Source: Bryobacterales bacterium
GTDB lineage: Bacteria; Acidobacteriota; Terriglobia; Bryobacterales; Bryobacteraceae
Direction of reading: 5' to 3'
Assembly (NCBI GenBank): GCA_016789745.1
Contig: JAEUQF010000461.1
Span: forward strand, 1 to 64,000
DNA: 64,000 nt
Below the pieces are notes generated by a model, which saw only the letters and a list, made by a program, of their open reading frames with translations, searched no databases and was not told the DNA's origin. Position 1 is the stretch's first letter, and every line of letters begins with the position of its first letter. Below are positions 38,644 to 61,868 of the stretch, in pieces. The translations under genes and the position numbers were made by a program.

Positions 38644-39512
38644 AGCGTACTGAGGAACTCCTCGTTCTGCTCGGGCGGGGGCGGTTTCTGGTAGCCGCCC
38701 TTCCACAGGTCGAACATCTCGGCGTAGCGCAGGTACTGGGCACGGCAGTAGCCTTCGTCTTCAGGAAGGCGATACAGAGCCAGACCGCTCTTGAAACGCA
38801 CCGAAGGCCAGACGCGGTCGTGGTAGACCGTGAATTCCGCCTTCTCCAGGAAGACGCCCAGAATGACGGCGTTCGGGTGGCGGCGCAGCAGTTCGCCTCT
38901 AGCCATGCGGTTGAGGTCCGGCGGGGCCGCCACCGGCAGCACGGGGGGTGCCTTGGCCGCCTGCTTAGCGGCTTCCCAGAGAGGAAGAATCTCGGGACGA
39001 AGGGGTTCGAAGATCTCGGCGGGCACGCTCACCCCGAGTTCGGGGACATGAAAGGAACGGTCGGCCTCTAGGTCGAAGCGGATTCGCCATTGCAGGTACC
39101 GCTGGGCGAAGCGGTCGAACCGGATCCCGGGTCCGTATTCGGTAACGCGCCCTTCACGGAGGTCGCGCATGCGCTGCACCATTGATGCCACACTGCCGCG
39201 AGCCTGCTTGGTGAGGGCGCGAGCCACGGTCTGCCTCGGGTTGGCTGCGGCGGCGCACCATGCGGCGATCTGCGGGTGGAACTGTGCGGGGGCTTGCAGG
39301 AAGCCTCCAGGGGCGCAGTCGCGTGCGAGTTCACCCAGATCCCGCAGCACGTTCTCCCGCTGCGCCGGAACGTTCGGGAAGGAACTGCCCCGAACGAGAT
39401 AGGCCAACTCTAGGTTGCCGCGGTACTTCGCTTCGAAGGCTGTTTGCCCAGCCAGTCCGAAGACAATGGCCATCCCGGCAAGCGGCGGAACCAGGATCTG
39501 GCGAGTGCGCAT
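38619..39512 (-). CDS. Exported protein of unknown function, third gene of esterase operon
   Basis: A 297-residue protein starting at ATG 39512, which overlaps the preceding stop as TAATG. It has an N-terminal hydrophobic signal (ILVPPLAGMAIVFGLAG). The mature sequence has YRGNLELAYLVRGSSFPNVP, then AWCAAAANPRQTVARALTKQ, LQWRIRFDLEADRSFHVPEL and RHPNAVILGVFLEKAEF. It ends EEFLSTLQITLCPK. No recognised domain. The tight coupling to a transglutaminase-like protein and an esterase suggests it belongs to the same extracytoplasmic process. Confidence 0.7.
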   Translation of the reverse strand: MRTRQILVPPLAGMAIVFGLAGQTAFEAKYRGNLELAYLVRGSSFPNVPAQRENVLRDLGELARDCAPGGFLQAPAQFHPQIAAWCAAAANPRQTVARALTKQARGSVASMVQRMRDLREGRVTEYGPGIRFDRFAQRYLQWRIRFDLEADRSFHVPELGVSVPAEIFEPLRPEILPLWEAAKQAAKAPPVLPVAAPPDLNRMARGELLRRHPNAVILGVFLEKAEFTVYHDRVWPSVRFKSGLALYRLPEDEGYCRAQYLRYAEMFDLWKGGYQKPPPPEQNEEFLSTLQITLCPK

Positions 39513-41038
39513 TAATACATTATGGCGACCGATTCGCAACGCAGCAGGCCCGGTGCGTTCGCCTGGTACACCGCTTCGTTCCCGCGGAAATCGCTGACCT
39601 GGAGTACCTGCCGGTGCTGGCGCTGGCCGCCGGCCGTCTGGTAGCGATACGTCACCGTCACCTGGCGGCGGAGAGCCGCCGGATCGGCTACGCGCAGGCG
39701 CACGGTGTTGGCACCAGCAAACAGCGGCGGAATCGACGTCATGCTGTTTTCGAAATACACCAGCAGTTTCACCTGCTGGCGCCCGGGACCAGACAGGCGC
39801 ACTTGAAAACGATACTTGCCATGGATCTGGAGCGCGGCTTTGCCACTGAGTGGCGACCATTCCGACCAGCGGTCCGGTTCGGCCGCGTGGCGAGGTTTCG
39901 GTTCGAGCGTTCGGATCTCGGCCGTCGTGCCGGGCGGTATGTCGACGGTCCCATCTACCAGCACGTAAGGGCTGCGCAGATCGAGCACCGGCGGCACGGG
40001 GGTCTTGTTGCCAGGGGCGTATTCGATGACGCCGTAGGCCTGGCCGATCGAGCGGCTGCCGGCCAGATCCGGCGGGTAGCCTTCGTTCGTCGGGATGGTG
40101 CCCAGGTATGGCTTCATCCGTTGGTAGTTGGGATCGTGAGCCGGCCAGTTGCCGTTGTGGGAGGTTTCGGCAACGCGATAGAAGCGGCCACTCGGCAGGA
40201 ACGGCCATTCGCGTTTTGTATGCTGGCCGGAGGGAACGTAGAACTTGCGCGCGGAGTTGTCCCAGTAGCGGGTGACCGTCGTGCCCGGCGGAAGCGAGAA
40301 GCTCATGTCGTGGAATGCCGTGCCCATGCGGTATTGCCCGTTGCCGAAGACATGTTCCTTCGGAGCGCCCGCGGCGCGCCAGGCCGATTCGGACACGAAG
40401 TAGGCCGGATGCAGCAACAGGGCGCGCTCCCACTCGATACCGGCGATTTCGAAGAACGGCCGGGAGCGGTGGCGATAAGCACGGTTAGTCTCGAACTTGC
40501 CGTGTAGTTCCGCCCAGTCCAGCACGCGGGCATCGGGCTTGTCCCGGTCGACCAGGTAGTAGCCGTAGCGGGGATCGAAGGCACCGTAGGCGTTGTCCAT
40601 GCGGAGCCGGTACATGGTGTGATAGCCGCCGTCTTCGTGCTGCGTGATGACGCGTTCGGCCGAGCGCGGGTCGCCTTTGTACTCCTGCCAGGCGGCCTCG
40701 GCAATGCGGCTGGTGGTATCGCAGAAGCCCCAACCGTAGACGAATAACTGCTTGTGCGCATCGAGCACGGAGGCTTCCTTACCCGGAGTGCCTTCGAAGG
40801 ACTGGATCATGCCGCCCACCGCCATGCGGGAGAACAGGCGCAGCCATTCGAAGAATGTCTTGCCCTGCGCGGTCTCGCTGGCGTTGGCGTTCCCGGAGAT
40901 GCGCATGACGTCGGCCGTCCACTCTTTGAGAGTGGTCGCCCGCGGCCAGGCGTCGTTGCTGAGTACGACGCCGTCGATGGACTGCGAAGAGGCTGCGGAG
41001 AGGAATGCGGTGAGAAGGAGAAGAAGAATGCGTATCAT
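39512..41038 (-). CDS. Exported transglutaminase-like protein
   Basis: A 508-residue protein with a signal peptide (MIRILLLLLTAFLSAASS). The core LFVYGWGFCDTTSRIAEAAW (Cys106), then DGGYHTMYRL (His140) and AYGAFDPRYGYYLVD (Asp155) has the order and spacing of a Cys-His-Asp transglutaminase/peptidase fold. The C-terminal half (about 330-508) is beta-rich (TAEIRTLEPKP, ALQIHGKYRFQVRLSGPGRQ), like carbohydrate-binding or Ig-type modules. Family members often act as cysteine peptidases or amidases. ATG at 41038 overlaps the esterase stop by four bases. Assignment rests on motif spacing, not on a search. Confidence 0.65.
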   Translation of the reverse strand: MIRILLLLLTAFLSAASSQSIDGVVLSNDAWPRATTLKEWTADVMRISGNANASETAQGKTFFEWLRLFSRMAVGGMIQSFEGTPGKEASVLDAHKQLFVYGWGFCDTTSRIAEAAWQEYKGDPRSAERVITQHEDGGYHTMYRLRMDNAYGAFDPRYGYYLVDRDKPDARVLDWAELHGKFETNRAYRHRSRPFFEIAGIEWERALLLHPAYFVSESAWRAAGAPKEHVFGNGQYRMGTAFHDMSFSLPPGTTVTRYWDNSARKFYVPSGQHTKREWPFLPSGRFYRVAETSHNGNWPAHDPNYQRMKPYLGTIPTNEGYPPDLAGSRSIGQAYGVIEYAPGNKTPVPPVLDLRSPYVLVDGTVDIPPGTTAEIRTLEPKPRHAAEPDRWSEWSPLSGKAALQIHGKYRFQVRLSGPGRQQVKLLVYFENSMTSIPPLFAGANTVRLRVADPAALRRQVTVTYRYQTAGGQRQHRQVLQVSDFRGNEAVYQANAPGLLRCESVAIMY

Positions 41039-43011
41039 TTGGGCACCTTGAGGGTCCAGCCGAACAGATGCTGCTGATGCAGTTGGAAGGCCTGGTAGAG
41101 AGGCTCGCGGCCGTAACGGACATCGGGCGTAAAGTGGAAGCTCCAGGAATCGCGGTGCAGCAGCAGCGGGATCTCCTGCCCGGCGGCTTCGGGCGACAGG
41201 CGGACCAGGCTGGTGCGGTTGCGGGCGCCCGTCCATTCCCGCTGCTTCTCTTCCTGGAGGTCGGCGATCTCGGTCAGGAGCGGCGAATCGGAGTAGACCT
41301 TGGCGCGGTGCCAGTTGTCCTTGTCGAAGGGATCCAAGCCTTGCTTCAGGCGCACCCATAGCGTGGCATCCTCGCCCGGCTCTAGGATGCCGTTGCCGTT
41401 GCCCTTACCTTCGGTCACGGTGCGTTCGAGAGAGGCGCCGCCGCCCTGATTGCCCTTCTGGCGGAAGGTACGGAAGGTGTGGGTACGGCCATCGAGGATG
41501 ATGACCTCGGCGGGTGGTTCCAGGGGGTCCGGGGCCACCAGGACATCGATGGCTTCGGTGCGGCTGATGTAGCCGTCGTAGGTGATTTTGACGTGCAGAC
41601 GGACACGGGCAAAGTCACCGGCGCCGGAGGTGAAGCGGACACGGAAGGAGGTGCGAAGATCGGCGATAGCGCCTGCGGCGAGGTTGGCAACCGTGGCGGA
41701 TTTGGCGAGAATTTCAGCGGTGGGGTATTCGGTGCTGAGATCGACTTTGACCTTGTCGAGCGCGGCGCCGCGCGGGTTATAGATGCGCAGTGGTAGTTGG
41801 ATGGCGGTGTTGGGGCGCACCCGGAGGACATCGCGCCCGGTCACCGGCAGCAGGATGGGCGGCTGTGCACCGGTTCCCTGCCCCGCGAAGCTGAAGACGT
41901 GCCCGTCGCAGTTCGTACGGATGGTGAGGCGGCCGTCGGCGCTGGCGATGACTTCGCTCCGCTGCAGCATGCCACCGTGGAGCGCGAGGTCCTGCACCTG
42001 GTAGCGGGCGCCGGCCCGGTAAACCGGCGCGGTGATGACCTGGAGCGCGTTGCAGGCGGCCGGTGGGCCATCGGGGGTCCAGCGGCGGGTCGTCACCGTG
42101 AAGCCGCCCTGCCGGACGTTGGCCAGCGTCACGGCGGCTGGTCCGGGTGCGTCGTGCGAGAGCGAATAGCCGCGGGTCTCAAAGGCCCGGTAGGCGGTGG
42201 AGTACGTCCACTCTTCCGGAGTGTTGTCCAGTGTGGGGTTGGCGAAGGCACGGAGGTGAAAGGCGAAGGTTTCGCCGATGGAGGTGGCCCAGTGGCGATG
42301 GTACTCGTCCTGGCGGAATTCGAAGTCCACCTGCGGCGTCGCGGCATAGGCGGCACGTAGTTCTTCGTGGTACTGGCTGATGTAGTCGCCGCTGGCGCGG
42401 ATGAGGCGGACCATGGTGGCCGAGTGATTCAGAAGCTGGTCGCGGGTACGCCACAGAAGCCGGCGGCCCTTTCCGCCGGCGAAGAACTCATGGCTGGGGT
42501 TGAAGGCCGACGCGCTGCCGACCAGGTCCGGGTAACGGGCACTCAGCGAGAGGCTTGTGTAGCCGCCCATGCTGAGGCCGGAAGTGGCGCGGTGGCGCCG
42601 GGTGGGGATGGTGCGGAAAGTGGAGTCGATGTGGCTGACGAGTTCGCGGAAGTAGACCCCGAAGTCGTAGGTGCCGCCGTCGCTCATCACGTCGTACGGG
42701 GCGCCGCCGTAGAAGCCGGTGTAGTGCTCGGCAACATAGCCGTCCATGGCGACGACGATAACGGGGTTGTCCCTCACGAAGGCGGCGATCTTCGGGACCG
42801 TGTCCTTCCCGTCGTCGTACTTTTCGAGGGTGTAGCGGTCGCTGTGGCCGTGAAAGTAATAGATGACCGGATAGCGCTGCTGGCCTTGTTCGTAGCCAGT
42901 GGGCAGGAAGAGGCGGTAATTTCGCGGCTGCTGGAAAACGCGGCTGGGAAAGGAGCGGTCCTGGTAGGGCTGGGCAAAGGCGAGAAAGCAGAGGAGGGTG
43001 GGCAGAAACAT
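41035..43011 (-). CDS. Exported esterase-D-type alpha/beta hydrolase with C-terminal beta domains
   Basis: A 658-residue protein with a short signal (MFLPTLLCFLAFAQ). Residues about 20-260 are an esterase D / enterochelin-esterase-like hydrolase: LFLPTGYEQGQQRYPVIYYF, HGHSD, VIVVAMDGY, then the nucleophile elbow ATSGLSMGGYTS (Ser147). A likely catalytic His is in DEYHRHWATSI. The remaining about 400 residues are beta-rich modules of unknown type (VTGRDVLRVRPNTAIQLPLR, GDFARVRLHVKITYDGY, GILEPGEDATLWVRL). First gene of a three-gene coupled operon, divergent from the ROK operon. Members often deacylate plant or microbial polysaccharide esters, but the substrate here is unknown. Confidence 0.8.
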   Translation of the reverse strand: MFLPTLLCFLAFAQPYQDRSFPSRVFQQPRNYRLFLPTGYEQGQQRYPVIYYFHGHSDRYTLEKYDDGKDTVPKIAAFVRDNPVIVVAMDGYVAEHYTGFYGGAPYDVMSDGGTYDFGVYFRELVSHIDSTFRTIPTRRHRATSGLSMGGYTSLSLSARYPDLVGSASAFNPSHEFFAGGKGRRLLWRTRDQLLNHSATMVRLIRASGDYISQYHEELRAAYAATPQVDFEFRQDEYHRHWATSIGETFAFHLRAFANPTLDNTPEEWTYSTAYRAFETRGYSLSHDAPGPAAVTLANVRQGGFTVTTRRWTPDGPPAACNALQVITAPVYRAGARYQVQDLALHGGMLQRSEVIASADGRLTIRTNCDGHVFSFAGQGTGAQPPILLPVTGRDVLRVRPNTAIQLPLRIYNPRGAALDKVKVDLSTEYPTAEILAKSATVANLAAGAIADLRTSFRVRFTSGAGDFARVRLHVKITYDGYISRTEAIDVLVAPDPLEPPAEVIILDGRTHTFRTFRQKGNQGGGASLERTVTEGKGNGNGILEPGEDATLWVRLKQGLDPFDKDNWHRAKVYSDSPLLTEIADLQEEKQREWTGARNRTSLVRLSPEAAGQEIPLLLHRDSWSFHFTPDVRYGREPLYQAFQLHQQHLFGWTLKVPK

Positions 43012-43022: not shown

Positions 43023-43045
43023 GTTAGGCAACAAGTTTGACTAAC
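43023..43045. promoter_or_regulatory. Candidate ROK operator GTTAG-N13-CTAAC
   Basis: An inverted repeat (43023-43027 and 43041-43045) 12 bases before the esterase start, in the divergent region facing the ROK gene. The inner GTTTGA-CTA (43035-43043) recurs as GTTTGAATCTA at 43125-43135. A TTGACG at 43104 could be a -35 element. ROK repressors bind such palindromes and often control divergent operons. Binding is inferred. Confidence 0.35.
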
Positions 43046-43122: not shown

Positions 43123-44412
43123 GTGTTTGAATCTAGTAAGGTTATTTTCCAAACTTACCCGGCTATGCCCGCCACAGATGCCAAACCCGACTCGGGAAGA
43201 ATGGGTGCCGCGGCCATGCGCAAGCTCAATAGCGCGCTGCTGCTGGACCTCATTCGCAGCAAGGGGCCGGTGTCGCGCGCCGACTTGTCCCGGCTGAGCG
43301 GGCTTACCAAGCCCACCGTTTCCAGCCAGGTGGCGGATCTGCTGCGCCGGGGCCTGGTGGTGGAAGCCGGCGAAGGAGAACCCGATGAACGCGGCGGAAA
43401 ACCTTCCCGGCTGATCAAGTTCGATCCGGGCTGCGGGTTTGTCGTCGGCGTCGAAATCGGATCCGCTAAAGTGCGCGTGCGGCTCGCCGAAATGGACGGC
43501 GGGATCTTGGATCGCGAGGACGTACGCATCCGGCCGGAACGCGGCGCGGACTACATTCTGGAGACGGTGGCGGAGACCTGCCGCACTGTCTTGGGAAGAG
43601 GACGCGGACGGAAGCGGAAACTGCTGACCATGGCCATCGCCGCGCCCGGACGGGTGGATGTCCGGTCCGGCACGGTGCTGGAGGCAGGCAACCTGTTTCA
43701 TTGGAAAAATGTCGCGGTGGGCGAGTTTCTCCAGCGGGCCTTTCGGGTGCCCGTGCAGGTGGAGAACGACGTCAACCTGGCAACGCTCGGCGAGATGCAC
43801 TACGGCATCTGCCGCGGTGGTGTGAAGAACTTCGTGCTGATCCGCCTGACCACAGGCGTCGGCGCCGGGCTGGTGATCGACGGTCACCTGTTCCAGGGCA
43901 ATCACTGGGCGGCGGGCGAGATCGGGCACATGGTGTTCGGACGCGAAGGTGTTCGCGGAGAAGTGAAGGAACGCGGCTACCTGGAATCGACGGTTGGCAG
44001 CGACCGCCTGCTGGAGCGGGTGCGGCTGGCACGTGCCAACAAGTCGGTGAAGGCAGCCCTTTCCAACGGTGTGGAACCCTCGGGCGAGAACGAGACCCTG
44101 AGTCTCAACGACCCGGCGGCGGCGGAGATTGTCGAGGATCTAGCGAGCCATTTGGGCCTTACCGCGGCACATCTGGCTGCCGTTCTGGATCCGGAGTTGA
44201 TCGTGTTGAACGGGGAACTGTTCGACCTTGTCACCGATCAGATCCGGGAGGTTGTGGAGCGCATCATCCCCTGGCCCGTGCGAATAGAGCGGTCCGCACT
44301 GGGCGAAGAAGGTGCATTGCTTGGAGCCATCGGTTCGGCCAGGGTGCTGGCCCACGAACTGATTTGCAACGCGGACCCTCCCATGGGCCGGGTTCACGAG
44401 AAAGAGGGATAG
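43123..44412 (+). CDS. ROK-family transcriptional regulator
   Basis: A 429-residue regulator. A winged helix-turn-helix covers about 28-80 (LNSALLLDLIRSKGPVSRAD, LSRLSGLTKPTVSSQVADLL). A ROK sugar-kinase-like domain follows (VVGVEIGSAKVRVRLAEM, AIAAPGRVDVRSGTV, VQVENDVNLATLGEM, GVGAGLVIDGHLFQGNHWAA, GEIGHMVF, ELIVLNGELF). The zinc-binding Cys cluster C-x-C-G-x-x-G-C-x-E of ROK kinases is absent, so it is a sugar-sensing repressor rather than an enzyme. GTG 43123 has GGAGG four bases before it; ATG 43165 is the alternative. It is first gene of the operon leading to TonB receptor 2. Confidence 0.88.
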   Translation: MFESSKVIFQTYPAMPATDAKPDSGRMGAAAMRKLNSALLLDLIRSKGPVSRADLSRLSGLTKPTVSSQVADLLRRGLVVEAGEGEPDERGGKPSRLIKFDPGCGFVVGVEIGSAKVRVRLAEMDGGILDREDVRIRPERGADYILETVAETCRTVLGRGRGRKRKLLTMAIAAPGRVDVRSGTVLEAGNLFHWKNVAVGEFLQRAFRVPVQVENDVNLATLGEMHYGICRGGVKNFVLIRLTTGVGAGLVIDGHLFQGNHWAAGEIGHMVFGREGVRGEVKERGYLESTVGSDRLLERVRLARANKSVKAALSNGVEPSGENETLSLNDPAAAEIVEDLASHLGLTAAHLAAVLDPELIVLNGELFDLVTDQIREVVERIIPWPVRIERSALGEEGALLGAIGSARVLAHELICNADPPMGRVHEKEG

Positions 44413-44417
44413 CTGTG

Positions 44418-47400
44418 ATGACAGCATGGACGTATCGCCGGACGTTGCTGGCGGCAACGCTCTTGGTGTGTTTCCTGACGGCGGCCTTTGGCCAGACCGG
44501 TGGCACTGGTGTCCTACGCGGCACGGTTTATGATCCGGCGCGGGCGACGGTTCCGCAAGCGAAGGTGGTGCTTACGCAGGTGGCGACGAACATTGTGCGC
44601 GAGGTGCCGGCCAATGAGGTCGGCTTCTTCCTGTTCGCCGGACTGGCGCCGGGCGAGTACACGCTTACCGTCGAGTTCAGCGGCTTCAAGAAATGGACGG
44701 GCCGGCTGCAGATGGTGGCCGGGCAGACCGCCGTGGCGGAACCGGTGCTGGAAGTGGGCAGTGTGGAGGCGGCCGTGGAGGTAACCAGCGCGGCGCCGAT
44801 CATTACGACCGAGAGCGCCGAAGTGGGTACGGTGAAGGATAACGTCCGCATCCAGCAATTGCCGCTCAACGGCCGCTCGGTGACGAACCTCTTCGACCTG
44901 ACGCCGGGCGTGGAAGGCGGCGCGAATCCGCGTGTGAATGGCATGAAGGTGGGTGCGGCCGAGATGACGCTGGATGGCGTATCGCTGGTCGACCGCTTCG
45001 GCGGCGGCATGGCCCGCGTGCAGCCGGGCCTGGACACGGTGCAGGAGTTCCGCATCGAGACCGTGGGCTCCGGCGCGCAGTTCGCCCGGCCGGCGACGGT
45101 GACGCTGGTCACCAAGGGCGGCACGAACGAATTTCACGGCAGCATGTTCGAGACTTTCCGCAACAACGGCGGCGGACTGTTGGCACGCAAGCGCCAGGAC
45201 GGCAACAGCGCGGCCTTTCTGGCTCGCAACGAGTTTGGCATTTCGGGCGGCGGGCCGGTTCTGATTCCCAAGCTATACAACGGGCGGAATAAGTCGTTCT
45301 GGTTTGTAGCCTACGAGGGACTGCGGCAGCGGCAGAAGACCTACTACGAAGACACGGTGCCGACCGAAGCGTTGTGGGCGGGAGACTTTTCGGGCGTGAT
45401 GGACCCGAACCTGAACAAGTACACCATCTACGATCCGCTGACCACCGGCGCCAATGGAACGCGGACACCATTTGCCAACAACCGGATTCCGACCAACCGG
45501 ATCAATCCCTTCTTCAACACGATGAAGGGCGTGACGCATGCGCCGACCAACGACACGAACGTGTTTCTCGGCCCGAACATGCAGACGTACTATCCGCTGC
45601 GGACGAATGCCGACAACCTGACGATTCGCGGCGATCACAACTTCAATGACAAGAACATCCTTACGGGACGCCTGACGCACTCCAAGCGGCGGTTCCAGCA
45701 ACTCGGCGGCTTGTACGGCGCGCCGCGAGAGGATATCACTAACGGCTACGGCACCAGCCGCAATGACGCCGATGTCTACAACGCGGCCATCCGTTATACA
45801 AAGACGTTCACGCCCACGCTGTTCAGCGAGACGCTGTTCGCCGTCAACCGGGCGCCGAAGAGTTCCGGCACGCTGGCCGACAACACCGACTGGGCGAATA
45901 AGCTGGGGTTGCCCAATCCATTCGGCGCCGGCGGATGGCCCACGATGTATGCCGGGTCCGCCGACTGGAACACGGCCTTCTCTTACGACGCGGACAACCG
46001 CAAGGACGAGATGCTGACGGCCTACATCGTGCAGCCCAACATGACCTGGGTGAAGGGCAACCACACCATCATGTTCGGCGGGCAGTATCGCAAGGAGCAG
46101 AACAACATTCGCGAACTGCAGCAGGCGCAGGGCGAACACGATTTCAGCGGCGCCTGGACAACGCAGTATGACCCGGCCAGCGACAGCGCACGGGCATTCA
46201 CGGGCGATGGCTTCGCATCGATGGCGCTGGGCTTAGGCGATTACTACTCGGCACAATACAATCGCGGCTATTTCTACTTCCGGCAGCAGGAGATCGGCGC
46301 CTATATACAGGACACCTGGAAGGTCACCCCGCGGCTGACCTTGAGCCTGGGCCTGCGCTACGACTTATGGACGCCGTACAAGGAGAAGTACGACCGGCTG
46401 GTAAACGTCGATATGAGTTCGCTGGCCAATACCTTCCAGGTGGTGACGCCGTTCAACACGTCGATGGAGCAGATCCCTGGATTGCCGCCATCGATGCTGG
46501 CGAGTTGGGCTGCGCGCGGGCTGACGTGGAAGACCGCCGATCAGGTGGGCATGCCCGGGAACCTGATTCCCGGCGACCATAACAACTTCGGGCCGCGGTT
46601 GGGCGTAGCGTACAAGCTGTCGTCGCGGATGGTGATTCGCGCCAGCTACGGCGAGTATTTCTGGACCATGCCGTTGTCCCAGATCCTGCAGGCCTCGCGG
46701 ACGAATCCGCCATTGAACCTGCGGTATGAGAATCCGACGGCATCGCTGGATGGTACCGGCAGCTACGGCGCGCGGTCGACACCGGCGTCGGACCTGTTCA
46801 TCGGCAAGACGACGATCAATACGAACGGGCTGGTGACTTTGCCGGCGTCGGCGCGGCCCTTTGTACCGCTCGATCCGAACAACTGGCGCGATGGGCGGGC
46901 GCAGAGCTGGCACATCACGATCGAGCGCGAGTTGATGGCGCAAACCGCAATCCGGTTGAGCTATATCGGCACGCACTCGTCGGGGATGGAGCAGAAGTAC
47001 AGCATCAATTCCCGCGAGGCGGAGTTCAACTATGTGGGACGGACGCGGCTGGCGCCTCCGGCCAATCGCGATCTGCTGCGCGTGAACAAAGATTGGAACT
47101 TCAGCAACGCGACGAATAAGACGGGCTTCGCCAACAGCAACTCCGCGCAGATCGACATCGAGCGGCGCTTTACCCGGGGCTTGGCGGCCCAGTGGTTCTA
47201 TGTCTTCAGCCGGACGTTGACCACGTCGGATGCGGGCGGATTCACCTCCGGCGGCGGAGCCATCAACTCCACCAACGGCGTGTTCCAGGTTCCGGAGAAC
47301 ATCCAACTGCTGGGCGGCGGCAACCTCTCGTACGACCAGCGGCTGCGGCTGGGATATCAGAACTCGACCAACATTCCGGCGCACCACATGCGGTGGAACG

Positions 47401-48035
47401 GCATCTACGATCTACCGTTTGGCAAGGGCAAACGCTTCGGTAATGGCGCCGGTCGCGCGCTGGATGCCCTCATCGGCGGCTGGCAGACGGCAGCCATCGG
47501 CGAATGGCGGAGCGGCTTCTGGATGGGCGTGAATCCGGCTGAGTATCTGTTCGGCAATCCGTCCTTGGATGCCGACCAGAGGCTGACCATGTTCTACGCC
47601 GGACGGCAGCGGCGGCTGTGGTTTGCCGGCGACTTCAATCCGACGCTGGCGACGAACGTGGACCAGAGCGCACTGCAGAAGTTGATTCCGCTCGATCGCG
47701 GGCAACGTGTGATGCATCCGGTAGGCGCCAGCTTCAACAACCAGTTGCAGCAGGTGCTGTCGAACGGGACCGTACGCAACACGCCGATCACCGAAACGGT
47801 GAGTTGGAACTCGCGGGCGTTCTTCAAAGGGCCTGGCGCCTGGGGCACCGACATTTCGGTGTTCAAGAACTTCAGCGTGACCGAACGCGTACGGGTGCGC
47901 TTCACGGCGGACTTCTTCAATGCTTTCAACCATCCGAACGATGCAACGCCTGACGCGACGACGGGGTTGCAGGATTTGACGGTACAGACTAACGATCCAC
48001 GGACGATCCAGTTCTCCTTGCGGTTGACCTGGTAG
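44418..48035 (+). CDS. Oar-like TonB-dependent receptor 2
   Basis: A 1205-residue outer-membrane receptor with a signal peptide (LLAATLLVCFLTAAFGQT). The CarboxypepD_reg domain is at about 28-115 (GVLRGTVYDPARATVPQAKV, FAGLAPGEYTLTVEFSGFKK). The plug is at about 125-245 (IQQLPLNGRSVTNLFDLTPG, LDTVQEFRIETVGSGAQFAR, VTLVTKGGTNEFHGSMFE). The barrel ends IQFSLRLTW with a C-terminal Trp. It begins five bases after the ROK stop, and the permease GTG follows three bases after its own stop. The operon therefore links uptake across the outer membrane to inner-membrane transport and hydrolases. Likely ligand: glycopeptide or amino-sugar fragments (inferred from context). Confidence 0.88.
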   Translation: MTAWTYRRTLLAATLLVCFLTAAFGQTGGTGVLRGTVYDPARATVPQAKVVLTQVATNIVREVPANEVGFFLFAGLAPGEYTLTVEFSGFKKWTGRLQMVAGQTAVAEPVLEVGSVEAAVEVTSAAPIITTESAEVGTVKDNVRIQQLPLNGRSVTNLFDLTPGVEGGANPRVNGMKVGAAEMTLDGVSLVDRFGGGMARVQPGLDTVQEFRIETVGSGAQFARPATVTLVTKGGTNEFHGSMFETFRNNGGGLLARKRQDGNSAAFLARNEFGISGGGPVLIPKLYNGRNKSFWFVAYEGLRQRQKTYYEDTVPTEALWAGDFSGVMDPNLNKYTIYDPLTTGANGTRTPFANNRIPTNRINPFFNTMKGVTHAPTNDTNVFLGPNMQTYYPLRTNADNLTIRGDHNFNDKNILTGRLTHSKRRFQQLGGLYGAPREDITNGYGTSRNDADVYNAAIRYTKTFTPTLFSETLFAVNRAPKSSGTLADNTDWANKLGLPNPFGAGGWPTMYAGSADWNTAFSYDADNRKDEMLTAYIVQPNMTWVKGNHTIMFGGQYRKEQNNIRELQQAQGEHDFSGAWTTQYDPASDSARAFTGDGFASMALGLGDYYSAQYNRGYFYFRQQEIGAYIQDTWKVTPRLTLSLGLRYDLWTPYKEKYDRLVNVDMSSLANTFQVVTPFNTSMEQIPGLPPSMLASWAARGLTWKTADQVGMPGNLIPGDHNNFGPRLGVAYKLSSRMVIRASYGEYFWTMPLSQILQASRTNPPLNLRYENPTASLDGTGSYGARSTPASDLFIGKTTINTNGLVTLPASARPFVPLDPNNWRDGRAQSWHITIERELMAQTAIRLSYIGTHSSGMEQKYSINSREAEFNYVGRTRLAPPANRDLLRVNKDWNFSNATNKTGFANSNSAQIDIERRFTRGLAAQWFYVFSRTLTTSDAGGFTSGGGAINSTNGVFQVPENIQLLGGGNLSYDQRLRLGYQNSTNIPAHHMRWNGIYDLPFGKGKRFGNGAGRALDALIGGWQTAAIGEWRSGFWMGVNPAEYLFGNPSLDADQRLTMFYAGRQRRLWFAGDFNPTLATNVDQSALQKLIPLDRGQRVMHPVGASFNNQLQQVLSNGTVRNTPITETVSWNSRAFFKGPGAWGTDISVFKNFSVTERVRVRFTADFFNAFNHPNDATPDATTGLQDLTVQTNDPRTIQFSLRLTW

Positions 48036-48038
48036 ACC

Positions 48039-49409
48039 GTGGCAGCCGCTGAACAAGCATCAGGAAGACCGGGATTGCGGCGCGTACTTTCGCGCCGCGA
48101 TCTTGTTTTGTACGGCCTGGTGATCCTGACGCCGACGGCGCCGTATCCGGTGTTCGGCATCATCCAGCAGGAATCGCAAGGGCAGGCCGCGGCGGGATAC
48201 CTGGTGGCCATGGTGGCGATGTTCTTCACCGCGGCCAGCTACGGTAAGATGGCCGCGGTGTTTCCTTCGGCCGGATCCACCTATACGTACGCGCAGAAGG
48301 GCTTGAACCCGCACGTCGGCTTTCTGGCGGGCTGGGCGATGATCCTCGACTACTTTCTGATTCCGCTGCTCAGCGTGATCTATGCGTCGCTGACGGCCGA
48401 AAGGCTGCTGCCGCAGGTTCCGCAGTGGATGTGGGCCATCATGTTCAACGGGGCCATCACGGCCGTGAACCTGCGCGGCATCCGGATGACGGCGCGGGCC
48501 AGCAGTTGGTTGATGGCAGTGATGACGGGAAGCGCCGTTCTGTTTGCGGCTCTGGCGGTGCGATACATCGTGGCGACGCAAGGCGTGCCGGGCCTGTTTT
48601 CGTGGCGGAGCATTCAACCCGCCGAGGGCTTCTCGATGAGCCCGCTGCTGCTGGGTGCGGGTATCGCGACGCTATCCTATATCGGATTTGACGCCATCTC
48701 GACACTGGCCGAGGACACAGTGGATCCGAGGCGTGATATCGGCTGGGCGACCGTGGCGGTGTGCATCGTGCAGGGGCTGATCTGCTTTGGGACGGCGTAC
48801 CTGGCGGCGATCGTGGCGCCGGACTACAAGGCCTTCCAGCAGCCGGACACGGCGATTCTGGATATCGGCCTGACGATCGGCGGGCAGGCGATGTTCGGGT
48901 TGTTGACGTTGGTGCTGTTGGTGGCGGGGCTGGCGAGCGCGCTCACCGGGCAGGCGGGTGCTTCGCGGCTGCTGCTGGGGATGGGTCGCGACGGGCTGCT
49001 GCCGCGACGCATCTTCGCGGACATCGATGAGCGTACGGCAACACCCGTGCGCAGCATTCTGTTGATGGGAGCGGTATCGCTGCTCGGGTCGATGGTGATG
49101 CGGTTTCAACTCGCGGTGGAGCTGTTGAACTTTGGCGCATTGACAGGATTCATCCTGGTGAACCTGAGCGTGGTGAATCATTATTACGTGCGCGCTCGCG
49201 AGCGGCGCGTCTGGGGACACCTGGTGTTCCCGCTTGTGGGCGCCGCGGTGTGCGGACTACTATGGCTGAACCTGTCGGGTAAGGCGCAACTGGCCGGCTG
49301 CGGCTGGCTGTTGTTGGGCACCGCGTATCTGGCGCTGTTGACGCGCGGATTCCAGAGTGCGCCGGCAGCGTTGGAAAGTCTGGAGGAGTTCGATGCAGAC
49401 AGTGGTTGA
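48039..49409 (+). CDS. APC-superfamily amino acid permease
   Basis: A 456-residue inner-membrane transporter with about twelve helices. The first discontinuous helix and substrate loop are RRDLVLYGLVILTPTAPYPV, then YTYAQKGLNPHVGFLAGWAM and the conserved LLGAGIATLSYIGFDAISTL plus AEDTVDPRRDIGWA in helix 6-loop. These are hallmarks of amino-acid/polyamine/organocation carriers. The start is GTG at 48039, three bases after the receptor stop. It overlaps the M20 peptidase gene by 17 bases. It probably imports amino acids or small peptides freed outside. Confidence 0.88.
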   Translation: MAAAEQASGRPGLRRVLSRRDLVLYGLVILTPTAPYPVFGIIQQESQGQAAAGYLVAMVAMFFTAASYGKMAAVFPSAGSTYTYAQKGLNPHVGFLAGWAMILDYFLIPLLSVIYASLTAERLLPQVPQWMWAIMFNGAITAVNLRGIRMTARASSWLMAVMTGSAVLFAALAVRYIVATQGVPGLFSWRSIQPAEGFSMSPLLLGAGIATLSYIGFDAISTLAEDTVDPRRDIGWATVAVCIVQGLICFGTAYLAAIVAPDYKAFQQPDTAILDIGLTIGGQAMFGLLTLVLLVAGLASALTGQAGASRLLLGMGRDGLLPRRIFADIDERTATPVRSILLMGAVSLLGSMVMRFQLAVELLNFGALTGFILVNLSVVNHYYVRARERRVWGHLVFPLVGAAVCGLLWLNLSGKAQLAGCGWLLLGTAYLALLTRGFQSAPAALESLEEFDADSG

Positions 49410-50691
49410 GACGCGGACAGAGAAGGATCTGCTGCGGTATGTGGACCAGAATCGGGACGTGCTGATCGGGATGCTGCGCGACCTGGTGCGCATGCCGTCG
49501 GAGAATACGCCGCCGGTGGGGAAAGAGGCGGGTTGCCAGGAGTACTGCGCGGCGCGGTTGCGCGAGTGGGGCTATGAGACCGAGCTGTATGCGCTGGCGG
49601 ACGTGGCCGGACTGGAACAGCATCCGCTGTACTGGCCCGGGCGCGACTATCGCGATCGGCCTAACGTTGCGGGCAGGCTGCGGGGGACCGGCGGAGGACG
49701 GTCGCTGATCCTGTCGGGACATATCGACACGGTGCCGGCCGGGACGCTGCGGTGGACGCGCGATCCGTTTGGCGCCGAGGTGGAAGGGAATCGGCTGTAC
49801 GGGCGCGGGTCGAACGATATGAAGGCGGGGGTGGCGACGAATCTGTTTGTGGCGCGTGCGGTTCGGGAGTTGGGGTTGGCCCTGCGCGGAGATCTGACAG
49901 TGGAGAGTGTGGTGGATGAGGAGTTCGGCGGCGTGAATGGGACGCTGGCCGGAAGGCTGCACGGATATGTGGCGGATGCCGCGGTGATCTCGGAGCCTTC
50001 GTTTCTGCGGGTGTGTCCGGCACAGCGCGGCGGGCTGACGGCACACATCACGTTCGAAGTGCCGAATGGCGGCATTCTCGCCGCGTCGATGGAAGATGGC
50101 GTGGCGGGGCAACTGGCGTGGTTCCTGTCGCAGGTGCCGGTGTTTGCAGCCGAGCGGCGGAAGGCGGCGCCGGCACATCCGCTGTACGGGCATCTGACGA
50201 ATCCGGTGCCGGTGTCGGTGTTGAAGATTCATTCGGGGCCGTGGGGTTCGGGCGAGCCGATGGCAACCGCGTCCTGCTGCAAAGTGGAGTTGTTCTGGCA
50301 GGCGATGCCGGGCGAGACGTTGGATGCGGTGAAGGGACAGTTCTGGCGTTGGCTGGAGGGATTGGTCGAGGCGCGGCCGGACCTGTTTGCCCAGATGCCG
50401 GCGGTGGAGTTTCCGATCCGCTGGCTGCCGGGCGCGGCGACGCCGGTGGAGAACGAGTTTGTGCAGACGATGGCGGCGTGCGCGGAAAGAGCGCTGGACG
50501 CGCGGCCGGCGATTGCAGGAATTGAAGGGCCTTGCGACATGTTTGTGTTTTCGCAGGCGTTTGGGATTCCGGTGGTGCTGTGGGGGGCTCGCGGGGGCAA
50601 CACTCACCAGGCGGATGAGTACGTGGAGATCGACACGGTAGTGGATGCGGCGAAGGCGCTGCTGCTGCTGGTGCACAGGTGGTGCGGATAG
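49393..50691 (+). CDS. M20-family metallopeptidase / N-acyl amino acid deacylase
   Basis: A 432-residue cytoplasmic zinc hydrolase (no signal). Metal ligands in order: ILSGHIDTVPAG (His, Asp), GRGSNDMKAGVA (bridging Asp), VDEEFGG (catalytic Glu-Glu), VISEPS (Glu), and GNTHQADEYVEI (His). The dimerisation domain lies between (about 200-310). M20 enzymes split dipeptides, acetylornithine-type N-acyl amino acids or succinyl-diaminopimelate. Its place after an amino-acid permease and before exported hydrolases suggests it finishes breakdown of imported peptides. The start at 49393 lies inside the permease gene. Confidence 0.88.
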   Translation: MQTVVETRTEKDLLRYVDQNRDVLIGMLRDLVRMPSENTPPVGKEAGCQEYCAARLREWGYETELYALADVAGLEQHPLYWPGRDYRDRPNVAGRLRGTGGGRSLILSGHIDTVPAGTLRWTRDPFGAEVEGNRLYGRGSNDMKAGVATNLFVARAVRELGLALRGDLTVESVVDEEFGGVNGTLAGRLHGYVADAAVISEPSFLRVCPAQRGGLTAHITFEVPNGGILAASMEDGVAGQLAWFLSQVPVFAAERRKAAPAHPLYGHLTNPVPVSVLKIHSGPWGSGEPMATASCCKVELFWQAMPGETLDAVKGQFWRWLEGLVEARPDLFAQMPAVEFPIRWLPGAATPVENEFVQTMAACAERALDARPAIAGIEGPCDMFVFSQAFGIPVVLWGARGGNTHQADEYVEIDTVVDAAKALLLLVHRWCG

Positions 50692-50693
50692 TT

Positions 50694-52271
50694 ATGAAGT
50701 ATCTCAGCCGGAGGGTTTTCTTGGGGGCATCGGCGGGGGCCGTTTACGGCACCGAGGGCGAGGTGCTGGTTGAGTTGGACGCGCGCGCCTTGTATGAAGG
50801 CCTGGAGGCGTCGCGCGTGCTGCTGGATGGCAACGCGTTGGTGTGGGATGGGCGGAATGCGAAGGCCGGCGGCACGGGGGTAGTGGTGACCGATGTGTTG
50901 GATCTTGGCGGGAATGCGCTGCTGTCCGGTGCGGCGGCAGTAGGCGCGGCGCGGGTGGCCGTGGACGCAGCCAAGGGTGTGCGGGTACAGGTGCGAAGTG
51001 GCGGCACCTACTTTGAAGGCAAGGAGTGGAGTGGGTGGCAGGAGGCGCGATCGGGCTTTTCGCCGGTGGGCCGCTACTGCCAGCTACGGATGGAGCTTGG
51101 TCCGGAGGCACCCTCGATTCGCGGCGTGCGGATGGTCGGCAGCGTGAAACGGCGGGCGTTTGCTGGTCGTATAGAGATGGTGCAGAACCGGATGCAGCAG
51201 TTGGTCCGGTCGCCGCTGGTGTTCGGCTATGAACGCGCGGACCAGGCGGATCTGGTGTGGCTGCGGAAGACGTTCGCGTTGGACACGATCATCGCGCCGC
51301 ATGCGGGTGAGTTGGAGCAATTGCGGGCAGTGCTGCATTGGGTGGCAAGCCGGAAGAACCTGCGGCCGGGGCCCTGGGAAGCGGCTGGGCAGGCGTATCC
51401 GTGGCACGTGCGGCAGGTGATGAGCGAGCGCGAGGGCGGTGCCATCCTCGGACACTGCATGAGCTACTGCGAGGTTTTTCTGGCGGCGGCCGCGGCGTTG
51501 GGCTGGCACGGACGGCACTGGGCGATGGAGGGTGTGCGGGATACCGGGCACGAGGTGCCGGAGATCTGGCTGAACTCGCTGGGTAAGTGGGTATACTTCG
51601 ATCCTTCGCTGGATACCTATTACACGGATAAGCAAACGGGCAGGCCGTTTAGCATTTTGGAGTTGCACCGGAGGTATCTGGCTACGGTGCTGAAGCCGGG
51701 GGAGCAGTTGGCGCATGGGCGGCATCTACATGAGGACCGGCTGAAGGCGCTGCGTGGCAAGCATCCGGTGCGCTGCGAGACGGGCGGGTATGTGTACGGC
51801 GAGAAAGGCGCGTGGGATTGGGAATGGGATCACGGCTATATGAGCGCGGGCTGGCTGCAGTTGACGCCGCGCAATGATTTCCATTCGCAAGTGGCGCCAC
51901 GGTTCTCGAATTTCGGGAAGGGCGCGGTGGGGTTCGAAGGCTATCCGATTTATGTGGATGCACAGACACCGCTACCGGAAGAGGCGACCCGCTGGTATAC
52001 GCGGGAGCGCGACTTGTGGTGGACGCTGAACCAGGCGGCGTTCCGCATGGTGCGCACGGCGGAGGATACGGTGCAGTTGGAGTGCGGGCACACGCAGCCG
52101 CATTTTCGACGGTTTGTGCGGCGGGTGGATGATGGGGCGGCGCAGCCGGTGGAGTCGCGGTTTTCCTGGCGGCTACGGGCTGGTGACAATCGGCTGGAAG
52201 TGACGCCGGAGGATGCGTTCGGGCGGCGCGGATTGGCGAGTTCGGTGGTGGTGCGATACGAGAGGGGGTGA
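50694..52271 (+). CDS. Tat-exported transglutaminase-like protein
   Basis: A 525-residue protein with a Tat signal (SRRVFLGASAGAVYG). A beta-rich region (about 20-150) precedes a transglutaminase core: GHCMSYCEVFLAAAAALGW (Cys259), DTGHEVPEIWLNSLGKW (His286), VYFDPSLD (Asp303). This triad and spacing match the transglut_core fold, often an amidase or peptidase in bacteria. The C-terminal part (about 420-525) is beta-rich (FSWRLRAGDNRLEVTPEDAF). Three bases separate it from the M20 stop, and its TGA overlaps the GH20 GTG. It may cut peptide stems on the glycan that the GH20 enzyme trims. Confidence 0.75.
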   Translation: MKYLSRRVFLGASAGAVYGTEGEVLVELDARALYEGLEASRVLLDGNALVWDGRNAKAGGTGVVVTDVLDLGGNALLSGAAAVGAARVAVDAAKGVRVQVRSGGTYFEGKEWSGWQEARSGFSPVGRYCQLRMELGPEAPSIRGVRMVGSVKRRAFAGRIEMVQNRMQQLVRSPLVFGYERADQADLVWLRKTFALDTIIAPHAGELEQLRAVLHWVASRKNLRPGPWEAAGQAYPWHVRQVMSEREGGAILGHCMSYCEVFLAAAAALGWHGRHWAMEGVRDTGHEVPEIWLNSLGKWVYFDPSLDTYYTDKQTGRPFSILELHRRYLATVLKPGEQLAHGRHLHEDRLKALRGKHPVRCETGGYVYGEKGAWDWEWDHGYMSAGWLQLTPRNDFHSQVAPRFSNFGKGAVGFEGYPIYVDAQTPLPEEATRWYTRERDLWWTLNQAAFRMVRTAEDTVQLECGHTQPHFRRFVRRVDDGAAQPVESRFSWRLRAGDNRLEVTPEDAFGRRGLASSVVVRYERG

Positions 52272-54511
52272 CGATGCTGTGCGAGCTGGTTGCGATGGTT
52301 GTGACGGCGCTGCTGGCGGCCGAGGTGGGACCGACGCCGCTGCTGCTGCGGGGACACGCAGTAGTGCCGACGCCGCAGCGGGTGACGTTGGGCTCGGCGG
52401 ATGTGACGGTGGATGGAACGTGGACGATTGACGCCGGCGATACGGCGGCGGCGCGCTGGCTGGCGTCGGATTTCGAGAGCTTTCACGGAGTGGGGTTGCA
52501 GCGCGCGGCGGGAGCGACGCGCAACGCGATCCGGCTGCGGGTGGCGGCGGGCGCGGTGAGCGGCATGCCGCAGGAAGTAGCGGCTCAGGCGTACCGGCTG
52601 CGGGTGGCGGCGGGATTGATCGAGATCACGGGTAATGGTGAGGCCGGGCTCTTCTACGGCGTGCAGACGCTGGTGCAACTGGCAAAAGCAGCGCGCGGGA
52701 AGATCGTGGTGCCGGCGTGTGAGGTGGAGGATTGGCCGCAACTGGCGCTGCGCTTCCTCCATTGGGACAGCAAGCATCACCAGGACCGCATGCCTGCATT
52801 GAAGCGCTATTTGGATTGGGCGGCGCGGTTCAAGGCGAACATGATTGGCTTCGAGATTGAGGATAAGTTCGCGTATCCTTCGCATCCGGAGATTGGCGCG
52901 CCGGGCGCGTTCACGCCGGCGGAGTTACAGGAGATTGTGAACTACGGGCTGGAGCGGCACATCCAAGTGGTTCCGGTGTTGCAGGCGCCCGCGCACTTCG
53001 CGTACGTACTGAAGCATCCGAAGTTCGCGCATTTGAAAGCCGATGGGAATAACTACCAGGCGTGCCTGTGCCTGGAGGAAACCTACAAGCTGATCTTTGA
53101 AATGTTCGATGACCTGATCGCGGCGACCAAGGGCGTGGACTACTTCTTTGTGTCGACGGATGAGGTTTACTATGCCGGGATCGGGAAGAACTGCAAGCAG
53201 CCTTATACGCCGGAGAACCGGAGCGCGATTCTGGCGGAGTTCGACCGACGGGCGCATGATCACCTGGCATCGAAGGGGCGGCGCATGCTGGCGTGGTTGG
53301 AGTATCCGCTGCTGGCGAAGGATCTGGAGAAGATCCCGGCGGGTGTGATTGATGGCGTGGTGGGGGAAGAGGAGTTCGTGGAGATCGAGCGGCGCAAGGG
53401 GATGCGGCAGCTGATATACAGCTCGACGCAGGGCGCGGAGTTTCTCTTTCCCGATCATTTCGCGATTCAGGCCATACCGCCGGGCACGCCGTTGGGCGAG
53501 TACGAATCGGTGTACACGTCGGGCAGGTTGGGGCAGGTGTACCGCACGTTCGCGGCGGGCACGCGGGCCTCGCGGATCAATCCGATTGGGGCATTCGCGG
53601 CGGCGTGGGGCGATTCGGGACTGCACAGCGAGACGTTCTGGATGGGATGGAGCGCGGTGGCGCGATGGGCCTGGCACGCGGGCACGCCCGGACCCGAACA
53701 GCATGCGGCGGAGTTCCTGCAGGTCTACTATGGCGCGGGGGCGAAGGGGATGGTGGACGTGTACCGCGGGTTGCAGCAGCAGGCGCGGCATTGGCAGCGC
53801 AGTTGGGACCGGGTGGTGTCGCGGACGAGGGCTTCGGGCTATGGGAATTCCGATGGTCCGAAGATTGGCACGGCGCGGCACGATCTGACGCTGCCGCCGC
53901 CGGCCTTACCGGATGCGGTGACGCTGGCCGTGCAGCCGCGGTATGGAGCGCGGAGCCGCACGTTCCTGGAGAGCGTGCCGGCGTGGCGGCTGGAGAATGA
54001 CCGGCTGCAACACGCGCTGCTGGAGAACATGCTGGCAGCGGACCGGAATCAGCATAGCTTGGAGGTGTTTCATGCACTGGCACGGTTGATTGGGCATCAC
54101 TGGCAGTTACTGTCGGCGATGACTGCGGCCGAGCAGGCGCTGCAAAGGGCCGAGCGGGCGGCGATGCGGGACCAGGCCGCGGAGGCGGTGGCGCATCTGG
54201 TGGAGGCGCATCGCTTGACAGGTGCGACACAGCAGGAGGCCGAGGCGGTTTGGAAGAACGTGCAGGGGGTGTTCGAAAAGAGTTGGTGGCCGAAGGGCAT
54301 GTCGGTGGGGGGAAGGAAGTTCGTGCACGTTTTGGACGACACGAAAGATCACTGGGCCGATCGCACGCCGGATCTGGGCTATATGTTTGCGCCGGAGCGG
54401 AGCATTGGGCTGCCGGCGTGGCGGGAGTCGCTGGCGGGTATTATTCGAGGCTATGCCAAGCGGCACAATGTGCCGGTGCGCGGGTTGGGTGAGAAGCGGT
54501 TGGAAGAATAG
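52268..54511 (+). CDS. GH20 beta-N-acetylhexosaminidase, exported
   Basis: A 747-residue glycoside hydrolase. The hydrophobic N-terminus (LCELVAMVVTALLAAEVG) is signal-like. A GH20b-like domain (about 30-150: VVPTPQRVTLGSADVTVDG, AYRLRVAAGLIEITGNGEAG, LFYGVQTLVQL) precedes the catalytic barrel (WDSKHHQDRMPALKRYLDWA, VDYFFVSTDEVYYAG). The GH20 Asp-Glu pair is Asp298-Glu299, but the usual H-x-G-G before DE is replaced by FVST. Such enzymes remove terminal GlcNAc or GalNAc using the substrate acetamido group. About 150 C-terminal residues are helical. The start GTG overlaps the previous stop (GTGA). It converges with the sialidase gene, three bases apart. Confidence 0.85.
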   Translation: MTMLCELVAMVVTALLAAEVGPTPLLLRGHAVVPTPQRVTLGSADVTVDGTWTIDAGDTAAARWLASDFESFHGVGLQRAAGATRNAIRLRVAAGAVSGMPQEVAAQAYRLRVAAGLIEITGNGEAGLFYGVQTLVQLAKAARGKIVVPACEVEDWPQLALRFLHWDSKHHQDRMPALKRYLDWAARFKANMIGFEIEDKFAYPSHPEIGAPGAFTPAELQEIVNYGLERHIQVVPVLQAPAHFAYVLKHPKFAHLKADGNNYQACLCLEETYKLIFEMFDDLIAATKGVDYFFVSTDEVYYAGIGKNCKQPYTPENRSAILAEFDRRAHDHLASKGRRMLAWLEYPLLAKDLEKIPAGVIDGVVGEEEFVEIERRKGMRQLIYSSTQGAEFLFPDHFAIQAIPPGTPLGEYESVYTSGRLGQVYRTFAAGTRASRINPIGAFAAAWGDSGLHSETFWMGWSAVARWAWHAGTPGPEQHAAEFLQVYYGAGAKGMVDVYRGLQQQARHWQRSWDRVVSRTRASGYGNSDGPKIGTARHDLTLPPPALPDAVTLAVQPRYGARSRTFLESVPAWRLENDRLQHALLENMLAADRNQHSLEVFHALARLIGHHWQLLSAMTAAEQALQRAERAAMRDQAAEAVAHLVEAHRLTGATQQEAEAVWKNVQGVFEKSWWPKGMSVGGRKFVHVLDDTKDHWADRTPDLGYMFAPERSIGLPAWRESLAGIIRGYAKRHNVPVRGLGEKRLEE

Positions 54512-54514
54512 CGG

Positions 54515-55603
54515 CTATTTGCCGAGTGCCCAATCGCGATCGAAGCGGGCCCAGCGGATGTCGCGGCCGCCGTCTTCGCGTTGGGCCTGCCAGACGGCTA
54601 CAAACTGGCCGTCGGCGGCCTGGACAATGTTTGGGTACGAGACCTGCGGGCCGTTGGAAGTGGCGACGGCGCGAGGAGTGCTCCAGGTGTGGCCGCCATC
54701 GGCGGAGAGGGCGACGCTGAGCGGATAGCGGGTGAGCGGCGAGTGGTTGAAGATGGCGATGATTTCGTTGGGGCGATCATCCAGGCGCCAGAGGCCGGCG
54801 GGCGTGTTGTGGCTGACTAGGGCACTGGGTTTCGGTGTGTCCCAGGTGACGCCGTTGTCTTTGCTGCGCGTTTCGTAAAGGTGGTTAGTGCCGGAGCGCA
54901 GCAGCATATAGAGTTCGCCGGACTGGAGTTCGACGAGGGCGGGTTCGCAGAGGCCGCCGGTGGAAGAGGGGAGCACTTTGGGGTCCGTGGTGTGGATCCA
55001 GCCAAAGGCGCGCCAGTTGATGCCGTCCTTTGATTTGAAGACGCCGGAAGCGAGGTTCATCTCGCCTTCGGTGCGGGCGGGCGTGCCGCGCTCCGCCCAA
55101 AGGTCCCAGGAGATGGGCATGATCAGGGAACCGTCGAGCAGGGTGAAGGAGCGGTGCCGTTTGCCGACCGAATACTTCCAGGGCATGGGGATTTCGGCGG
55201 GTTTGGACCAAGCCTTGCCATCGGCGCTGGTGGTGTAGAACATCTGGCTGGAGGCAATCAGGGTGCGCTTGAGCGGGACGGTGGTGGAGTAGACGAAAAG
55301 CTTTTGGCCGTCCCAGAGGAGGGTGGGGTCGGCATCGTTCATGGCGGGGATGTCGAGGGCTTTGACGGGTGGGGACCAGGTGCGGCCATTGTCGTCGGAG
55401 ATGCTGGCGGCGATGTAGGGATCGGGGCCATCCTTAGGCATCACGGCGAAGGCGGTGACAAGGCGGCCTTTGGCGATGCGGGTGATGACGGGGTAGGCGC
55501 TCTGGCGGTGGGCGCCGCCGTCGCCGGTGATGACCGCGCCGGTGTCGAAGGAAGCGGCGGAGCAGGTGGCAGCGAGAGCAAGGAGGAGAGCGTGGCGAAG
55601 CAT
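54515..55603 (-). CDS. Exported BNR-repeat sialidase-like protein 1
   Basis: A 362-residue protein starting at ATG 55603 with a signal peptide (MLRHALLLALAATCSA). It has five Asp-box motifs S-x-D-x-G-x-x-W: SISDDNGRTWS, TTSADGKAWS, FKSKDGINWR, TRSKDNGVTWD, ALSADGGHTWS. These mark a six-bladed sialidase-type propeller. Further active-site-like text is GGLCEPALVELQSGELYMLL (Glu) and YPNIVQ near the end (Tyr). Such proteins release terminal sialic acids or related sugars. The arginine triad is only partly recognisable by eye. It is transcribed away from the DapA-like gene across a shared 75-base promoter region. Confidence 0.82.
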   Translation of the reverse strand: MLRHALLLALAATCSAASFDTGAVITGDGGAHRQSAYPVITRIAKGRLVTAFAVMPKDGPDPYIAASISDDNGRTWSPPVKALDIPAMNDADPTLLWDGQKLFVYSTTVPLKRTLIASSQMFYTTSADGKAWSKPAEIPMPWKYSVGKRHRSFTLLDGSLIMPISWDLWAERGTPARTEGEMNLASGVFKSKDGINWRAFGWIHTTDPKVLPSSTGGLCEPALVELQSGELYMLLRSGTNHLYETRSKDNGVTWDTPKPSALVSHNTPAGLWRLDDRPNEIIAIFNHSPLTRYPLSVALSADGGHTWSTPRAVATSNGPQVSYPNIVQAADGQFVAVWQAQREDGGRDIRWARFDRDWALGK

Positions 55604-55617
55604 GATGGTGGAAGAAA

Positions 55618-55646: not shown

Positions 55647-55678
55647 ACTCTGCGGGTCTATCCTGGTGTCACCTCTTT

Positions 55679-56608: not shown

Positions 56609-56640
56609 GACAGGGGCATTGACGGGCTGTAACGGGTAGT

Positions 56641-56674: not shown

Positions 56675-56698
56675 GGCAGGCGGTACCAGGGAGAAAAG

Positions 56699-61859: not shown

Positions 61860-61868
61860 GAACGGGAC

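Follow-up and report, generated by a model that had tools for sequence, protein, structure and literature searches.

The locus at positions 43123-54511 of contig JAEUQF010000461.1 from a Bryobacterales bacterium (assembly GCA_016789745.1) raises the question of which nutrient would bring together, in one operon, a sugar-type repressor, an outer-membrane receptor, an amino acid permease, an M20 hydrolase, a transglutaminase-like protein and a hexosaminidase. The window, i.e., the whole stretch of 64,000 nucleotides that was analyzed, lies on contig 8 of a 10-Mb genome in 499 contigs. The original prediction, made from the letters alone, was that these six genes target material containing both amino sugar and peptide, namely peptidoglycan fragments or glycopeptides. 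The six plus-strand open reading frames (ORFs) are present as first called, with intergenic gaps of 5, 3, -17, 2 and -4 bases, and Pfam matches support the identification of the ROK regulator, the TonB-dependent receptor (TBDR), the APC permease, the M20 protein and the GH20 protein. The functional unit is predicted to reach past these genes, to a divergent pair at 39512-43011 that encodes a putative esterase (EST) and a second transglutaminase-like protein (TG2). We give roughly even credence to the reading that the two divergent operons, ROK-TBDR-APC-M20-TG-GH20 on the plus strand (TG being the first transglutaminase-like protein) and EST-TG2 on the minus strand, make up one ROK-controlled nutrient regulon for beta-N-acetylhexosamine glycoconjugates bearing both amide- and ester-linked groups. 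The predicted regulon itself is well supported by comparative genomics; its substrate and the roles of the M20 and transglutaminase-like enzymes are what we infer.

The link between the two operons comes from a motif that was first seen by comparing the regions upstream of ROK genes; neither a scan for inverted repeats in general nor an exact search for TAAG-N-CTTA had revealed the pattern. GTTAG-N13-CTAAC-like sites precede ROK in the relatives G079, G022 and G037, and two are found in the window. The first of the latter, predicted ROK operator 1 (GTTAGGCAACAAGTTTGACTAAC, 43023..43045), adjoins the EST start, and the second, predicted operator 2 (GTAAGGTTATTTTCCAAACTTAC, 43136..43158), adjoins the ROK start, in a position comparable to that upstream of ROK in the three relatives. 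Because operator 2 falls inside the ROK ORF as originally called (43123-44412) and its counterparts lie upstream of ROK in the relatives, translation more likely starts at ATG 43165 than at 43123. When the motif is refined to a 23-bp form, GTWAGT-N11-CCTWAC, the 10-Mb genome contains it exactly twice, each time in the EST/ROK gap, and contains the reversed control pattern six times; if six random matches are expected, the chance that two fall in this gap is about 3e-9. Among 151 genomes, the strict form of the motif occurs nine times, six of them at promoters of the predicted regulon: in the window, upstream of ROK in G079 and G022, between the DUF5060 and EST genes in G022, between DUF5060 and EST-TG2 in G079, and at the DUF5060-GH20-GH123-c176 operon in G018. 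The EST and DUF5060 sites of the relatives played no part in defining the motif. Thus, the shared palindromic motif would tie the EST-TG2 and GH20 operons to the ROK gene, with binding by the ROK protein predicted.

The putative regulator (43165..44412, plus strand) combines a winged helix-turn-helix domain with a ROK domain, as identified by Pfam, and scores below the NCBIfam cut-offs for NagC and Mlc. The NagC/Mlc-type ROK proteins of E. coli, Vibrio and Listeria share this architecture of a DNA-binding domain and a sugar-binding domain and the presumed role of a sugar-induced repressor of uptake genes, but the ROK proteins of the cluster differ from them in lacking the zinc motif CxCGxxGCxE and in the predicted operator, GTTAG-N13-CTAAC. 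The zinc motif is absent from the window protein (REGVRGEVKERGYLE) and from its orthologs in the cluster, and is kept in the paralogous ROK proteins of the loci L106 and L110, which are encoded beside other M20 genes.

Conservation of the gene neighborhood provides the second line of evidence. We searched 150 relatives for GH20 and M20 orthologs, fetched 40 regions, and called and compared their genes (the assemblies are drafts of the metagenome-assembled type, and a simple gene caller was used). Of the 31 places with an M20 ortholog, 14 have a GH20 gene within 15 kb (13 of 30 when the window is left out, 0.19 expected) and 7 have an exported transglutaminase-like gene within the same distance (6 of 30 outside the window, 0.14 expected), and EST is near M20 at 6 of 31, window included (0.12 expected); these expectations assume random placement and independent genomes, which overstates certainty, and the margins are wide. 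The clustering of M20 with GH20 is beyond chance. In most M20 loci the gene is adjoined by APC, and the order ROK-TBDR-APC-M20 is kept in three other genera (G079, G022 and G037), with TBDR identities of 72-74%; G010 and G003 show the order TBDR-GH20-APC-M20, and over all five genomes the receptor orthologs within the same cluster have identities of 63-74%. Absence of synteny in relatives had been named beforehand as a possible refutation of the original prediction, which therefore survives in this respect.

The place of TG after M20 is held in G079, G022 and G037 by two proteins of about 600 and about 176 amino acids (the latter denoted c176). By sequence, the larger one is a distant GH123-type beta-N-acetylgalactosaminidase (cf. 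PMC11087588, PDB 8K2F); distant members of this group thus occur in relatives at the place of TG, with none in the window. In at least six loci (L073 5732-6262 and relatives), the gene for the smaller protein, whose family has no Pfam match, comes after the GH123-like one. The M20-APC loci of relatives carry GH20- or GH123-type N-acetylhexosaminidases. In G039, genes for TG-like, M20, APC, GH20, GH42-like, ROK, TBDR, EST and GH123-like proteins are all in one place, and G019 combines GH123-like, GH42-like, TG-like and EST genes.

These observations bear on an alternative, namely that APC and M20 under ROK control serve general salvage of amino acids or dipeptides, with the glycosidases being mere neighbors in gene-rich catabolic islands. 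Glycosidase-free paralogous ROK-APC-M20 triples do exist (L106 and L110), but the linkage to GH20 and GH123 genes is far above chance and one operator-like motif precedes the ROK-TBDR-APC-M20, EST-TG2 and DUF5060-GH20 operons, which makes this explanation quite improbable.

The remaining proteins of the plus-strand operon are compatible with uptake and processing of an amino sugar conjugate. The TBDR (44418..48035) is an outer-membrane receptor of the OMP_b-brl_4 type with a carboxypeptidase-regulatory domain (Pfam OMP_b-brl_4, CarboxypepD_reg). It is followed by the APC-family amino acid permease-like inner-membrane transporter (48039..49409; Pfam), with 11 hydrophobic segments. A strong GC hairpin followed by TTTTGT is present at 48070-48105, early in the APC coding sequence, and could be an attenuator or a chance feature of a GC-rich gene; an attenuator between TBDR and APC was rejected as a candidate, the hairpin lying within the APC coding start and not being clearly kept in relatives. 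The GH20 beta-N-acetylhexosaminidase (52268..54511) matches PF02838 (GH20b, E 2e-22) and PF00728 (catalytic domain, E 4.5e-12) and carries a hydrophobic N-terminal signal, and its Asp-Glu catalytic pair is intact: D298-E299, R162 and H243 align with those of 1hp4, R162 and E299 being invariant in 25 sequences and D298 and H243 in 24 of the 25. The M20 (ArgE/DapE-like) metallohydrolase (49393..50691; Pfam) has, like ROK, no hydrophobic signal at its N-terminus and is assigned to the cytoplasm. Its metal-site residues (HxD, D, EE, E, H) are all invariant in 25 sequences; it scores below every listed NCBIfam cut-off, including the ArgE and DapE models of characterized enzymes, and its best solved relative, 3pfo, is itself only 'putative'.

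The closest described working analogue that we found is the ong cluster for oxidative chitin use in Pseudoalteromonas prydzensis ACAM 620 (PMC9537276), which likewise combines a TonB receptor, an exported GH20, an inner-membrane importer, a cytoplasmic deacetylase-type step and a repressor of uptake genes. By analogy, GH20 might release HexNAc (N-acetylhexosamine) aldonic acids, formally N-acetyl alpha-amino acids, which APC would import and M20 would deacetylate. Besides this shared division of labor, the GH20 and GH123 neighbors indicate HexNAc. The parts differ, however: the window has APC where ong has an SSS transporter, ROK where ong has a MurR/RpiR regulator, and M20 where ong has the D-aminoacylase-type OngB. 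Identity of M20 with OngB was considered and rejected, OngB being a subtype V amidohydrolase of the D-aminoacylase fold (PMC12017989). Neither OngC, KdgK nor RidA is recognized in the window locus, and among the annotated neighbors there is no linked deaminase or 2-keto-3-deoxygluconate (KDG) kinase, the D-ser_dehydrat-type genes of the genome being on other contigs; the TG-like and esterase genes, which lie outside the ong cluster as described, would be left unexplained. Because the deacetylase family differs and no deaminase or KDG kinase is recognized, the locus is not classed as ong, and an ong-like oxidized amino sugar route appears unlikely.

The fifth gene had been labeled an exported Cys-His-Asp enzyme. 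TG (50694..52271) carries a twin-arginine-like (Tat-like RR) signal and the motif GHC...GHEVPE...FDPSLD, in the order typical of transglutaminase-like enzymes (C255-H286-D303 in its own numbering). The label holds insofar as the motif is conserved in the one close homolog and aligns with that of another TG-like family, and lacks the backing of domain models: TG has no Pfam match at E 10 and no NCBIfam match, Transglut_core and its relatives included. The single close homolog of TG (family A1) in the collections searched, 56-57% identical, is encoded on a short contig in G049, from the same family as the window's genome; a genome-wide search likewise finds one. A DUF5107-TPR gene adjoins this homolog, and DUF5107-TPR proteins recur in the loci compared (L159 8265-11489, L076, L078, L093). 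A different exported TG-like family found in other loci, A2, has invariant C92, H118 and D133, and a profile comparison of A1 with A2 aligns the triads (76%). TG2 belongs to a third family, A3, with members in G003, G018 and the window, and hhalign shows A3 to be homologous to A2 (98%). Searches of solved structures with TG, A2 and A3 retrieve nothing relevant.

The divergent operon would add ester and, probably, further amide chemistry. EST (41035..43011, minus strand) is an exported CE1-like putative esterase (PF00756; hydrophobic signal; Ser in GLSMGG), the nearest solved structure of which is a ferulic acid esterase (7xrt, E 7e-19); its Ser and His are invariant in 11 sequences. TG2 (39512..41038, minus strand), which overlaps the stop of EST by 4 bases, has a Sec-like signal and conserved C-H-D residues, as seen in the A3 alignment, is 50-55% identical to L084_9 and L091_10, and has no Pfam match at E 0.01. 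The two genes are associated beyond the window: EST and TG2 are fused into a single ORF of 1156 amino acids in G079 (L151 3879-7349), EST adjoins TG2 in G015 and an A2-type TG-like gene in G018 and G019, and 5 of 22 EST places have a TG-like gene within 5 kb (0.04 expected).

The gene content of this extended unit helps to evaluate the peptidoglycan half of the original prediction. Scavenging of peptidoglycan or muropeptides would account for the combination of amino sugar and peptide-type enzymes, and the M20 and APC families can serve peptides and amino acids. Nevertheless, among about 50 Pfam-scanned proteins there is no muramidase, N-acetylmuramyl amidase, NlpC/P60 or muropeptide-recycling gene, with none of the AmpG, MurQ, AnmK and NamZ types (the scan covered these proteins, not the genome at large), and the GH123-, DUF5060- and GH42-like partners and the CE1-like esterase do not fit such a role. 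Peptidoglycan as the target is thus without specific support among the genes tested, and we regard this explanation as very improbable. The more general part of the claim fares better: the genes form one unit, tied to amino sugars and probably to amide bonds, that includes a sugar-type repressor and shows synteny with relatives, and glycopeptide-like material is a possible target. The CE1-like esterase, together with the DUF5060 and GH42-like glycosidases of relatives, fits a decorated heteroglycan or glycoconjugate better than peptidoglycan.

Downstream of GH20, at 54515-63899, a BNR gene (minus strand) is followed by genes for a DHDPS-family protein whose N-terminus resembles a signal sequence, a second TonB receptor, a BNR protein, a GDSL hydrolase and a BNR-Kelch/NanM-like protein. 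Eukaryotic peptide:N-glycanases of the PNG1 type have the transglutaminase fold. Accordingly, the window might encode breakdown of sialylated or N-linked glycoproteins, in which the downstream cluster desialylates the glycan, the TG-like proteins act as peptide:N-glycanase-type amidases, GH20 trims the product and APC and M20 use the peptides. The adjacency of the BNR, BNR-Kelch/NanM-like, GDSL and DHDPS-family genes and the second receptor to the operon, and the exported TG-like enzymes that accompany HexNAc-ases, are in line with this scheme. Against it, the loci of relatives examined have no counterpart of these BNR, GDSL and BNR-Kelch genes near M20, the operator motif is absent from the downstream cluster, and no protein of that cluster passes an NCBIfam sialidase model. 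Because conservation of the regulon does not extend to this cluster, a linked sialic acid function was set aside, and the glycoprotein scheme as a whole is quite unlikely.

Several observations weigh against the proposed glycoconjugate regulon. Three of the nine strict operator matches have no evident link to it; they are at L163 6289 (G004:C198), at L150 8056 (G044:C11) and, in G090, 2.4 kb from an M20 paralog. In other loci, M20-APC pairs are accompanied by neither GH20 nor TG-like genes, in some cases beside 3-keto-glycoside genes (L090, L105), and the ROK-APC-M20 triples without glycosidases in L106 and L110 have the zinc-type ROK. Because of such pairs, M20-APC may serve a broader or a different substrate, and the ligand of the APC permease is not readable from sequence. 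TG is rare and hence accessory in its own operon, and the AlphaFold model of TG, built from a two-row alignment, has a predicted local distance difference test score (pLDDT) of 33. In L090, L091, L092 and L105, M20, mostly with APC, has 3-keto-disaccharide hydrolase (PF06439) and xylose-isomerase-like genes as neighbors, and genes of the Gfo/Idh type are close by, which suggests a link of these neighborhoods to cleavage of 3-keto-glycosides.

Gene content, intact catalytic residues, placement of the exported and cytoplasmic proteins according to their N-termini, conserved linkage and the shared operator-like motif are computed here, and they are compatible with the following scheme, in which the order of steps is conjectural. 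In the absence of substrate, ROK would occupy both operators of the EST/ROK gap, keeping the two promoters shut until relieved by a sugar derived from the substrate. A glycoconjugate of oligosaccharide size would cross the outer membrane through the TonB receptor. Once in the periplasm, it would lose beta-linked N-acetylhexosamine to GH20 and ester groups to the CE1-like esterase, and TG and TG2, judging by their C-H-D motif, may cut amide bonds, freeing an amino acid or its N-acyl derivative. The freed product could then be imported by the APC permease and deacylated or hydrolyzed by the cytoplasmic M20 enzyme.

Polysaccharide utilization loci of Bacteroidota are of the SusC/SusD type, with regulation by hybrid two-component systems or anti-sigma factors. 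The predicted regulon resembles them in that one locus combines a TonB receptor, a regulator of its own and surface or periplasmic glycosidases, but differs in the ROK repressor, the OMP_b-brl_4-type receptor and the APC-M20 pair, and Pfam matches SusD to none of the annotated genes of the window locus. In agreement with the original prediction, no locus with this set was found described in the open-access literature searched. Tentatively, and with confidence well below even, the locus could represent an undescribed type of Acidobacteriota glycan regulon, with exported transglutaminase-fold glycoconjugate amidases (fused to the CE1-like esterase in one relative), entry of N-acyl amino (sugar) acids via APC and M20, and a zinc-less ROK with a new operator.

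Few glycan uptake systems are understood in Acidobacteriota, which are abundant in soil, and here sequence alone connects a regulator with a predicted operator and a gene set. Given that these three are tied together, the predicted regulon is directly testable. The exported TG-like proteins, which Pfam fails to detect, may form a new enzyme group directed at the amide bonds of glycoconjugates.

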